Source of the DNA: [Chlorobium] sp. 445
GTDB taxonomy: Bacteria; Bacteroidota; Chlorobiia; Chlorobiales; Thermochlorobacteraceae
DNA: 42,225 bases
Assembly: GCA_002763895.1 (NCBI GenBank)
Contig: NSLH01000081.1
Span: 40,001-82,225 of the forward strand
Reading direction: 5' to 3'
In this document: positions 21,355 to 35,864 of the stretch, one piece after another
Layout: each line of letters begins with the position of its first letter
Position numbering within the stretch: position 1 is the first letter of the stretch
Position numbers and translations under genes: made by a program
The notes under the pieces: model-generated
The model's database searches: none
Seen by the model: only the letters and a program-made list of their open reading frames with translations
What the model was told of the DNA's origin: nothing

Positions 21355-21750
21355 TTAGCTGATACGGAACAAGACTTCGCCGCCAACGCCGGCTGCACGG
21401 GCTTCCTTATCCGTCATCAATCCTTTGGATGTAGTCAGCACGAAGAGCCCCAGCCCACCCAAGTATTTTTTGATGTCTCTACCTTCATAGACACGGCGTC
21501 CGGGCGTGCTCACGCGCTGTAGACTTTTGATAGCGTGCTGTCCGTATGCATCGTATTTGAGTTGCACGCGCAACACAGGAAATTTCCCTGTTTCAATAAC
21601 TGTGAAGTCTTTGATGTACCCTTTGTCTTTAAGCAATGCAGAGATACCCACTTTTAGTTTTGAGCTGGGTATATCCACCGTTTTATGTTTCGCTTTCGCA
21701 GCATTGCGAATGCGCGTCAAGTAGTCAGCGATTGGATCGGTAACTGGCAT
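21355..21750 (-). CDS. rpsH: 30S ribosomal protein S8
   Basis: Binds 16S rRNA helix 21 and, in E. coli, represses the spc operon by binding its own mRNA. The 131 residues include [26 protein letters not shown] (split family N-terminus), [10 protein letters not shown] and the C-terminal [26 protein letters not shown]. The start codon lies 15 nt after a large hairpin (21766-21812), without an obvious Shine-Dalgarno sequence. Confidence 0.98.
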
Positions 21751-21765
21751 TTGCGGTTTAGGTTT

Positions 21766-21812
21766 CTTCGCGCGTCCTGCAAAATCTGCCTCACTTTGCA
21801 GCAGCCGCGAAG
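21766..21812 (-). promoter_or_regulatory. Two-part hairpin in the leader before rpsH
   Basis: In the mRNA sense the 47 nt fold as CTTCGCG / CGCGAAG (outer 7 bp), a 4x4 internal loop (GCTG opposite GACG), CTGCAAA / TTTGCAG (inner 7 bp) and an 11-nt loop. It fills most of the 78-nt rpsN-rpsH spacer and ends 15 nt before the rpsH ATG. No U-tract follows. S8 binds a helix with an asymmetric internal loop in 16S rRNA and in the E. coli spc mRNA, so a regulatory role is plausible, but I could not match the specific S8 core bases. Confidence 0.55.
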
Positions 21813-21828
21813 GTTGAAGAAATTAGGT

Positions 21829-22099
21829 CTACCAACTTGCTTTTTTCATTCCTGGAATTTTGCCCTCGAGCGCAAACTTGCGCAAGATGTGGCGACAGAC
21901 GCCATATTTTCTATAGACCCCGCGCCCTCTGCCTGTGATAGAGCAGCGGTTGCGAAAACGCGTCGGTGAGCTATCGCGCGGTAATGCCCGCAAGGCTTCC
22001 ATGTTGCCTTCTTCTTTTAATTTCTGGCGACGCTCAGCGTAAAATTCAATTTTTTCTCCTGCGCTTTTCATTTCGCGCAATCACACTTTTTTTTGCCAT
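21829..22099 (-). CDS. rpsN: 30S ribosomal protein S14 (zinc-independent type), with a one-base frameshift near its start
   Basis: Small-subunit head protein. The ATG at 22097-22099 begins [16 protein letters not shown], the usual S14 N-terminus. The frame then breaks in an A run (plus-strand T run 22050-22055, six where five are needed). After removing one base it continues [16 protein letters not shown] to [17 protein letters not shown] and ends IPGMKKASW, 89 residues in all, which is exactly the length of the long, zinc-free S14. The alternative TTG start at 22080 gives an N-terminus unlike S14, so I reject it. Confidence 0.93.
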
Positions 22100-22116: not shown

Positions 22117-22759
22117 TTAATTTTTCTTTCTGAATGGCATACCCAGTTCTTTGAGCAATGCGTAGGCTTCCTCATCGGTCTTAGCCGTTGTTACAAACGT
22201 GATATCCATTCCGTTGATTTTTGAGACCTTATCAATATCAATCTCTGGGAAAATAATTTGCTCTTTGACACCGAGCGTATAATTGCCTCGACCATCGAAA
22301 CTGCTATCGCTGACACCTCTGAAGTCTCTAATGCGTGGAATTGCAAGCGAGATGAGCCTATCCATAAACTCGTACATTCGGTGTCGGCGCAGCGTAACGC
22401 GGCAACCAATCGGTTGATTTTCTCTTAGTTTGAAGTTCGAGATCGCTTTCTTTGACTTTCGAATCTCTGGCTTTTGCCCCGTGATTTGTGCAAGTTCTTT
22501 GACTGCCATTTCCAAGAGCTTTGGATCTTGCGCTGCTTCACCGATGCCGATATTGATAGCAATTTTTTCAAGGCGCGGCACCATCATCACATTTTTTATA
22601 CTTGAATTGTTCCATCAGCCGCTTTACCACTTCCTGACGATATTTCACAAATAGTCGTGGCGGTGGCGCTGGTTCGTTTGAGAGCGGCGCAGCAGCTTTA
22701 GCTGGTTCTTCGCCTTTCTTTTTTTGCTGCTTTTGTTTTTTTTGCTCTTTTTCTGCCAT
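22117..22759 (-). CDS. rplE: 50S ribosomal protein L5 with Lys/Pro/Ala-rich N-terminal extension, one-base frameshift
   Basis: 5S rRNA-binding protein at the central protuberance. The conserved part is [23 protein letters not shown] joined to [18 protein letters not shown], then [21 protein letters not shown] and DMDI-like end ([22 protein letters not shown]). The join needs removal of one A from the six-A run (plus-strand T run 22592-22597). Upstream of the conserved start lies an extension of about 34 residues, [18 protein letters not shown] onward, not found in E. coli L5. Total about 213 residues. Confidence 0.93.
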
Positions 22760-23104: not shown

Positions 23105-23207
23105 TTCTTTTGTGCTATGTCGTTAATTTTTCCTTTTCTAAAGTGCTGCATCGTCTCCATTTTGTTGTTAGACCTTGTTAGAGCGGCACGATGCGGCAGT
23201 TTTCTTG

Positions 23208-23280
23208 AGCGGGAGACGGGACTCGAACCCGCGACCAACAGCTTGGAAGGCTGTGACTCTACCAACTGAGTTACTCCCGC
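23208..23280 (-). tRNA. tRNA-Gly (anticodon UCC)
   Basis: On the minus strand a complete 73-nt cloverleaf is seen. The acceptor stem is GCGGGAG/CTCCCGC with discriminator U, as is usual for glycine. The D-arm includes ACTCAGTTGGTAGAGT, the anticodon stem is ACAGC/GCTGT with loop CTTCCAA (anticodon TCC), and the T-arm is GCGGG-TTCGAGT-CCCGT. CCA is not encoded. It lies between rplN and rplX in the same orientation, so it must be cut out of the ribosomal-protein transcript and/or transcribed from the promoter-like site at 23311-23341. Confidence 0.97.
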
Positions 23281-34036: not shown

Positions 34037-35864
34037 CTATGATGCTGATGGTTCAACTTTTTGTGTCTCATTGGTCGGCGGTGGCACATCCAGTGCAGCA
34101 GAAGCCTCTTGAATTTTCTGCTTCTCGTTGGGATGTGCGCGCATATACTCCTCAATTTCTTCTCGGCTCTTGCCTTTGAAATACTCCAGTGCAGAGAGAA
34201 TAATGCGGCGGTTTTCTTTGTCGAACTCAATTACTTTGAGTGGGAGCTCGTCATAGATTTTGAATGACGAGTGAATGTCGCGTACGCCGCCTTGCAAGAG
34301 ATGTGAAGCAGGCACAAATCCATCAACCCCCAGCGGCAATTCCACCACCACACCTTTTTCAATGATTTGAGTAATCTTACCTTTCGTTTCTGTGCCCACT
34401 GTATAGACAGTCTCGAAGTTATTCCATGGGTCATCTGTGATTTGCTTATGTCCAAGCGCAATGCGGCGTGCTTTGACATCAACTTTCAACACTTTGACTT
34501 GCAATTCGTCATTTTTTTTTGACCAATTCACCGGGATGTCGAATCTTCTTTGTCCAAGATAGGTCAGAGATATGCACCAAACCATCTACACCGGGCTCTA
34601 ATTCTACGAAGACACCGAAGTCCGTCAGGTTGCGCACAATACCTTTGTGAATTGTATCCGGCGCATACTTTTCGGCAAGCTTAAGCCATGGGTCGGCTTC
34701 GACTTGCTTCATGGAGAGTGAGAGTTTGGTATTCTCTTTGTCAATGTTGAGAATCACGCACTCTACTTCTTGTCCCATTGACACAAACTGATTTGGGTGT
34801 TTAATGTGCTGTGTCCAACTCATCTCGCTAATGTGCACCAAGCCTTCAATGCCTTTTTCAATTTCAATGAAGACGCCGTAGTCGGTAATCGAGACAACTT
34901 TACCTTTGACCTTATCACCGACTTTATACTTTGCATCAATGTTTTCCCACGGGTGTGGTGTCAGCTGCTTCATGCCGAGTGAGACGCGCTGCTTTTCTTC
35001 ATCGTAGCCAATGACCACGACTTTGATTGGATCATCTAACTTTACGGCTTCGGATGGGTGCGTGATGCGTCCCCAAGTAATATCAGTGATATGAACCAAG
35101 CCGTCGAGTCCGCCCAAGTCCACGAAGATGCCGAAGTCTGTGATGTTTTTGACTGTGCCTTCCAGCACCATACCGACTTTGATATTTGCCAGCATCTCTT
35201 TGCGGCGCGCTTCATACTCGGCTTCAAGAATTACTTTATGGCTAACGACGATATTTTGCGTCAGTGGATTGATCTTGACCACGCGGAACTCCATCGTTTG
35301 TCCGACGAGGGCATCGAAATCGCGCACGGGCTTAACATCAATTTGGGAGCCAGGCAGAAACGCTTCTACGCCGCTGAGCGAGACGGTCATGCCGCCTTTG
35401 ACGCGCGCGACAATTTTTCCCATCAGGGTCGTCCCTTTCTCCAGCGATTCGTAAATCTTCTCCCAGATGCGCATAGCGTCCGCTTTGCGCTTTGAGAGAA
35501 TCAGTTGCCCCATTTTATCTTCAATGCTTTCGAGAAAGACCTCAATTTCATCGCCTACTTTCAACTCAGTTGGGTCACGGAACTCTATAAGCGGAATAAT
35601 CCCTTCTGACTTGAAGCCTACATCTACAGAGACGTCTTTGTCAGAGATATGCACGATACGTCCTTTGACAATTTCGCCTTCTGTCAGTTCATTGAGTGTG
35701 CCCGAGTACATTGATTCAAGTTGCTTCAATTCTTCGTCTTGGTACTCGGCGAAGAATCGAACGCGCGTAGGCTTTTTGGTTTTCACCGTATCGGTTGACA
35801 TGTTAGTGTCGTTTGCATCGCTGCTTTTTTGCGCAGACATTTCGGCGACTTGCATTTCTGCCAT
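34037..35864 (-). CDS. rpsA: 30S ribosomal protein S1, six S1 domains, with a one-base frameshift
   Basis: Binds mRNA upstream of start codons and helps unfold it. Six S1 (OB-fold) repeats are visible, starting near [95 protein letters not shown] and [20 protein letters not shown]. The frame breaks after the fifth, in an A run (plus-strand T run 34512-34520, nine where eight are needed); the repaired [16 protein letters not shown] joins both parts to about 608 residues. The start ATG has an AGAAGG Shine-Dalgarno 9 nt upstream, held in a strong hairpin. It is transcribed separately from the str operon. Confidence 0.95.

Follow-up and report, generated by a model that had tools for sequence, protein, structure and literature searches.

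The spc operon of [Chlorobium] sp. 445 contains, in the spacer between rpsN and rpsH, a structured RNA hairpin of 47 nucleotides (21766-21812, minus strand) whose conservation is well supported and which is probably a brake by which ribosomal protein S8 limits its own production, because the conserved core of the hairpin lends itself to a reading as a modified site for S8 binding. All positions refer to the window, the whole stretch of 42,225 nucleotides that was analysed; as the spc operon is encoded on its minus strand, the RNA of the element is the reverse complement of the window letters. That S8 regulates the spc operon is textbook knowledge for E. coli and Vibrio; in E. coli S8 binds at the start of rplE in the spc mRNA and represses the operon (PMC10931766). 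This 2024 review describes spc regulation in B. subtilis or other species beyond E. coli and Vibrio as unknown and remarks that phylogenetic studies of spc control have not advanced.

The hairpin and its genomic context

The rpsN-rpsH spacer is 78 nucleotides long (21751-21828), of which the hairpin occupies 47. Read 5' to 3' on the minus strand, the RNA consists of the 5' arm of helix 1 (CUUCGCG, 21806-21812), the 5' side of an internal loop (GCUG, 21802-21805), the 5' arm of helix 2 (CUGCAAA, 21795-21801), a variable apical loop, the 3' arm of helix 2 (UUUGCAG, 21777-21783), the 3' side of the internal loop (GACG, 21773-21776) and the 3' arm of helix 1 (CGCGAAG, 21766-21772). Helix 2 can be extended toward the apex. 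The remaining leader of 15 nucleotides up to the rpsH ATG (21751-21765, minus strand) is devoid of a Shine-Dalgarno-like sequence. The initial annotation had described two 7-bp helices around a 4x4 loop that end 15 nucleotides before the S8 start, and the sequence is as described there; the strand is a new addition and the genes are confirmed by Pfam. These are rpsH (S8, 21355-21750, minus strand; PF00410, E 6.1e-43), the proposed regulated gene whose product is also the proposed ligand, the upstream rpsN (S14, 21829-22080, minus strand; PF00253) and the next downstream gene rplF (L6, 20798-21337, minus strand; PF00347), for which co-regulation by translational coupling is likely.

The 47 nucleotide element has a predicted minimum energy of -23.7 kcal/mol with a z-score of -4.07, and none of 200 shuffled sequences was as stable, a score that is biased because the stretch was picked for its pairing, so that conservation is the stronger evidence. 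The entire rpsN-rpsH spacer reaches a z-score of -2.78 (2 of 200 shuffles as stable), and the opposite strand, assessed over 75 nucleotides, is unremarkable (z -0.77, 46 of 200).

Several features of the surrounding operon deserve mention in their own right. The open reading frame of rpsN covers only the main part of the gene, and both rpsN (about 22040-22098, minus strand) and rplE (22568-22590, minus strand) show apparent frameshifts in an A run near their starts, as if one A were in surplus. As rpsN is intact in two relatives and rplE in one of these two, the frameshifts are probably assembly or sequencing errors, with slippage as the alternative. A tRNA-Gly (UCC) gene is located within the spc operon between rplN and rplX (23207-23280, minus strand), and a tRNA in the same orientation was seen upstream of rpsH in six of the seven related loci scanned, these six belonging to families f1, f2 and f4; in the seventh, L126, none was seen. 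The single f3 genome (G010, locus L034) carries a second, longer inverted repeat, AACCCCTCT...AGAGGGGTT, followed by a T run, in an 80 nucleotide upstream part of the spacer between the rpsN stop and the element. This stretch, which is also present in L126, resembles a terminator or else a mobile repeat.

Conservation and covariation

The class was sampled with 98 genomes in four families (f1, n=9; f2, n=2; f3, n=1; f4, n=86), where f4 is the Chlorobiaceae, whose named records include Chlorobium and Chlorobaculum. The hairpin occupies the rpsN-rpsH spacer in all 12 genomes of f1 to f3, that is of the order Chlorobiales outside the Chlorobiaceae, including relatives of the green sulphur bacteria such as Thermochlorobacter, and rpsH follows it directly in every one of them at a distance of 14-24 nucleotides from hairpin to ATG. 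In the alignment of the 12 sequences 97.6% of the cells pair, compared to 87.1% in shuffled alignments, and the covariation score of 0.441 (0.231 when shuffled) was not reached in any of 500 shuffles. Both helices covary, with six of 11 pairs changed on both sides, and in helix 1 such changes affect four of its seven pairs. The element combines a covariation-backed structure with a constant place before ribosomal-protein genes, two of the hallmarks of a ribosomal leader. The apical loop and the length of helix 2 vary among the 12 genomes and the core of the internal loop is the most conserved part. The initial annotation had suggested a covariation analysis of this spacer and named a lack of conserved helices among relatives as one of two grounds for abandoning an S8 site; since the helices are conserved and covary, that ground falls away.

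A covariance model was built from the 12 element sequences, and its scores on these carriers are therefore high by construction. In whole-genome searches, 11 of the 12 carriers each gave a single match, without exception in the rpsN-rpsH spacer, and the twelfth (L031) was lost by the fast search and scored 29.5 bits with the filters off. A dispersed repeat can be dismissed for the genome studied here, where both the sequence pattern and the covariance search found one copy. Among the 86 Chlorobiaceae genomes there was one weak match (G090, E 0.011), and a search of 394 genomes of the phylum, f1 to f3 included, gave one match outside the carriers (G123, E 0.0068). Both are taken as chance, being located inside open frames and away from spc genes. 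The phylum search thus yielded no believable copy beyond the 12 carriers, a result that falls short of proving absence because the fast filters miss weak matches. The element has no match in Rfam 15, and a search of the open-access literature turned up no comparable leader for S8 or rpsH.

Loss of the Shine-Dalgarno sequence and evolutionary history

In the outgroups, which comprise Ignavibacteria and Melioribacteraceae records and one record titled Bacteroidota, the rpsN-rpsH spacers are only 11-21 nucleotides long and a Shine-Dalgarno-like sequence is present in seven of seven loci. Within the order such a sequence precedes rpsH in one of the 12 element-bearing genomes (L034, where it overlaps the end of helix 1) and in none of 65 Chlorobiaceae loci. 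The Shine-Dalgarno sequence of rpsH has been lost in the order and retained in the outgroups. A tree of six proteins from 33 loci, 14 of the 65 Chlorobiaceae loci among them, places the Chlorobiaceae beside f2 with a support of 1.0 and nested within the element-bearing families; within f1 the support for branches is lower, at 0.92 and 0.65. This nesting suggests that the element was probably ancestral in the Chlorobiales and was replaced in the Chlorobiaceae.

Most of the 65 Chlorobiaceae loci have a different conserved motif in the rpsN-rpsH spacer, approximately UCAUUUUCGAAAGUAACCAAC (for example L062, L063 and L069), which occurs in a reduced form in two loci (L083 and L100). RNAalifold predicts no structure for this motif and a manual attempt to read it as an S8 core failed.

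The internal loop as a proposed, modified S8-binding site

According to PMC4176348, the S8-binding core of 16S rRNA helix 21 consists of a base triple 595-(596-644), the pair G597-C643 and the invariant A642; E. coli has A-(A-U) as the triple and T. thermophilus has G-(C-G). In its free fold the element has a symmetric internal loop, with GC(Y)G on the 5' strand and RACG on the 3' strand, which is almost invariant. All 12 carriers have on the 5' strand G, C, one variable nucleotide (a pyrimidine in 11 and A in one), G and C, and on the 3' strand G, a variable purine, A, C and G. Two of them (L003 and L005) have one more nucleotide beside the first G, so that the loop is 4x4 in 10 and 5x4 in two of the 12.

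If the A of the 3' strand is set on position 642, a shifted register follows in which the neighbouring nucleotides become C643, G644, G597, C596 and G595 and position 598-640 becomes a C-G pair. The 5' side of the loop would then supply G595, C596, an extra pyrimidine and G597, the 3' side R641, A642, C643 and G644, and helix 2 would supply 598 with its first C and 640 with its last G (numbering via PMC4176348). Setting the A on 642 makes use of every invariant position and leaves the variable ones to 641 and the extra nucleotide. In this register the loop can be read as the S8 core of helix 21 in a modified version of its T. thermophilus form. The recognition bases of S8, which the initial annotation had been unable to match, can be matched if the register of the 4x4 loop is shifted and one additional nucleotide is allowed on its 5' side. 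An A occupies the place assigned to 642 in all 12 carriers, the assignment itself being a reading. The G597-C643 pair is likewise possible in all 12, as is 596-644, although covariation cannot test these two pairs because they never vary. The G, C and G assigned to the triple are invariant in all 12 and fit the G-(C-G) form, a triple deduced from the sequence and not seen as such. The looped-out nucleotide may alternatively be the invariant C instead of the pyrimidine, which would copy the topology of an S8 aptamer (see below) more exactly; this variant puts an A opposite G644 in L005.

When random loops between helices were read in all registers and both orientations, allowing up to one additional nucleotide on the 5' strand, 0.53% of 200,000 4x4 loops and 0.09% of 100,000 5x4 loops could be read as an S8 core, figures that serve as a yardstick and not as a blind test since the procedure was devised after the reading had been found. 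A descriptor of the S8 core was also run over 80 named loci, of which eight bear the element and seven are outgroups. It matched the element in four of the eight, the remaining four varying in helix 2 or having extra nucleotides, and it found nothing in the seven outgroup loci and scattered matches in two Chlorobiaceae loci, L127 and L117, the latter lying in the rplE region and having a similar counterpart in the window. Within the window the descriptor found the element, 22367-22407 (within rplE, coding) and 35499-35547, the latter two being taken as chance, and the scan led to the rejection of an S8 core at another place in the spc operon.

A number of observations count against S8. Position 641 is A or G in all 12 carriers, so neither U641 nor an isosteric base is found, and selection experiments cited within PMC4176348 required a base combination isosteric with the U form. 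The native 3x4 core free of extra nucleotides is likewise absent, since all 12 elements have an extra nucleotide and the S8 register needs one to be looped out; a published S8 aptamer (see below) demonstrates that such a nucleotide on the 5' strand is tolerated. Forcing this register costs 4.1-5.8 kcal/mol relative to the free fold in the 12 elements (ViennaRNA), compared to 2.7 kcal/mol for both native helices 21, in an energy model that ignores base triples. Finally, the Chlorobiaceae genomes are without the element even though their S8 is closely related.

A comparison with helix 21 of the organism's own 16S rRNA, which the initial annotation had proposed, was carried out with two relatives (G001 and G007), as 16S was complete enough in two of 14 genomes and was not found in the genome studied here. 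Both have an ordinary AAGU/AUACU core, so the element is no copy of the organism's own helix. The element and the helix 21 of these family members have G597, C643 and A642 in common, and they differ in that G-(C-G) replaces the 595-(596-644) triple, C-G replaces the 598-640 pair and the purine at 641 replaces the U of the two relatives. The covariance model did not recognise helix 21 in the 16S rRNA of these two relatives, which also speaks against S8, and yielded only look-alikes of helix 1 among the matches listed.

Alternative explanations

The element could be a ribosomal-protein operator with another ligand (S14, L5, L6, L18, S5 or L15) or a complex as its ligand, the likeness to the S8 site being accidental. 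The usual assumption for structured RNAs next to ribosomal-protein genes is that an operon product is their ligand, and many such leaders, for example that of S6:S18 in Chlorobi, are described as unlike rRNA (PMC7247131). The core of the element deviates from helix 21 by one nucleotide and at position 641. This explanation is nonetheless unlikely, given how rarely a chance loop can be read as an S8 core (0.53%), that S8 is the regulator known for the spc operon (PMC10931766) and that rpsH lies directly downstream in all 12 genomes.

It is improbable that the hairpin serves in processing or stability without a dedicated ligand, for example as an RNase site or as a barrier that separates the decay of rplE-rpsN from that of rpsH onward. 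Its position between two presumably cotranscribed genes in 12 of 12 genomes would suit such a role, but a barrier requires stable pairing and not an invariant loop, and it is the internal-loop core that is most conserved whereas the apical loop and the length of helix 2 vary. For this reason the RNase site that the initial annotation had offered as an alternative has become less likely. Nor is the hairpin an intrinsic terminator, as a U run after it is lacking on both strands (the downstream sequence is AAACCUAAACCGCAA). A self-acting device for translation initiation or coupling that replaces the lost Shine-Dalgarno sequence without feedback, such as a standby site or a ribosome-bound hairpin, accords with the lack of a Shine-Dalgarno-like sequence before rpsH in nearly all loci of the order, including the Chlorobiaceae with their other spacer motif, but is very improbable as it gives no reason for the invariance to lie in the loop core instead of the flanking single strand.

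The proposed S8 operator

It appears fairly likely that the element serves the spc mRNA as an operator in cis, bound by free S8 and acting on rpsH and the genes behind it. That S8 is known to repress the spc operon in E. coli and that rpsH is the next gene both count in its favour. The initial annotation had put forward an S8 control site beside its own gene; position, conservation and core match speak for this suggestion, and the purine at 641 and the extra nucleotide speak against it. The covarying structure, its position, the invariant core and the loss of the Shine-Dalgarno sequence are observations. We infer S8 as the ligand with rather more confidence than doubt; the register shift, the translational repression and the reach into downstream genes are further parts of the proposal. 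In the proposed mechanism, S8 in surplus over 16S rRNA would bind the hairpin, and the free symmetric loop GCYG/RACG would shift its register upon binding into a core that resembles helix 21. The bound core would contain C598-G640, G597-C643, A642 stacked on S8 and C596-G644 together with G595, with one 5' nucleotide looped out. The hairpin clamped in this manner, 14-24 nucleotides before an AUG without a Shine-Dalgarno sequence, would block loading of the 30S subunit or re-initiation. The output of S8 would drop and, by coupling, that of L6, L18, S5, L30 and L15 as well.

If the ligand is right, the element would work like an S8 operator and yet differ from the native S8 site; as U641 is absent and an extra nucleotide is present, the element is not filed in the family of native S8 sites. 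A more far-reaching possibility, which we hold at slightly less than an even chance, is that the element is the natural counterpart of an S8 SELEX aptamer, an mRNA operator with a symmetric loop that becomes an S8 site only via a register switch on binding. Its origin would then lie at the base of the Chlorobiales and coincide with the disappearance of the Shine-Dalgarno sequence of rpsH; it would have evolved separately from the E. coli operator, next to a different start codon, and have given way in the Chlorobiaceae to an unrelated conserved spacer motif. An S8 operator shared across this lineage of the Chlorobiales would mean that S8 had been recruited a second time, with a different RNA and a different start codon, and would allow the permissible divergence of an S8 site from helix 21 to be gauged on a natural example.

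Comparison with known systems

Like the S8 operator of the E. coli spc operon, the element resides in the same operon next to a start codon, is proposed to bind the same protein and has a core with equivalents of G597-C643 and A642. Unlike the E. coli operator it is located before rpsH and not rplE, belongs to another lineage, and has the triple G-(C-G) instead of A-(A-U), a purine at 641 and an extra 5' nucleotide. As in helix 21 of 16S rRNA, position 595, the pairs 596-644, 597-643 and 598-640 and A642 can all be assigned, with the triple in its T. thermophilus form (PMC4176348), but the loop of the element is 4x4, whereas the native one, bounded by the pairs 594-645 and 598-640, is 3x4, and 641 is a purine and not U.

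The Bacillus anthracis S8 SELEX aptamer described in PMC4176348 has a symmetric 4+4 (eight-nucleotide) internal loop whose 5' strand contains an additional nucleotide. Its Kd for S8 is close to that of helix 21, and its pairing register changes on binding. The element shares with this aptamer the symmetric loop, the extra 5' nucleotide and, as proposed, an S8 core that would appear only after a register shift. The aptamer in turn is artificial, has G-(G-C) as its triple and A-U at 597-643, and contains an A-A pair that is missing in the element. The element also resembles the 20 leaders described by Eckert and Weinberg (2020; PMC7247131), including S6:S18 of Chlorobi, in being a lineage-restricted covarying mRNA structure next to ribosomal-protein genes, but differs from them in its gene, as Table 1 of that paper has no leader for S8 or rpsH and for Chlorobi has only S6:S18.
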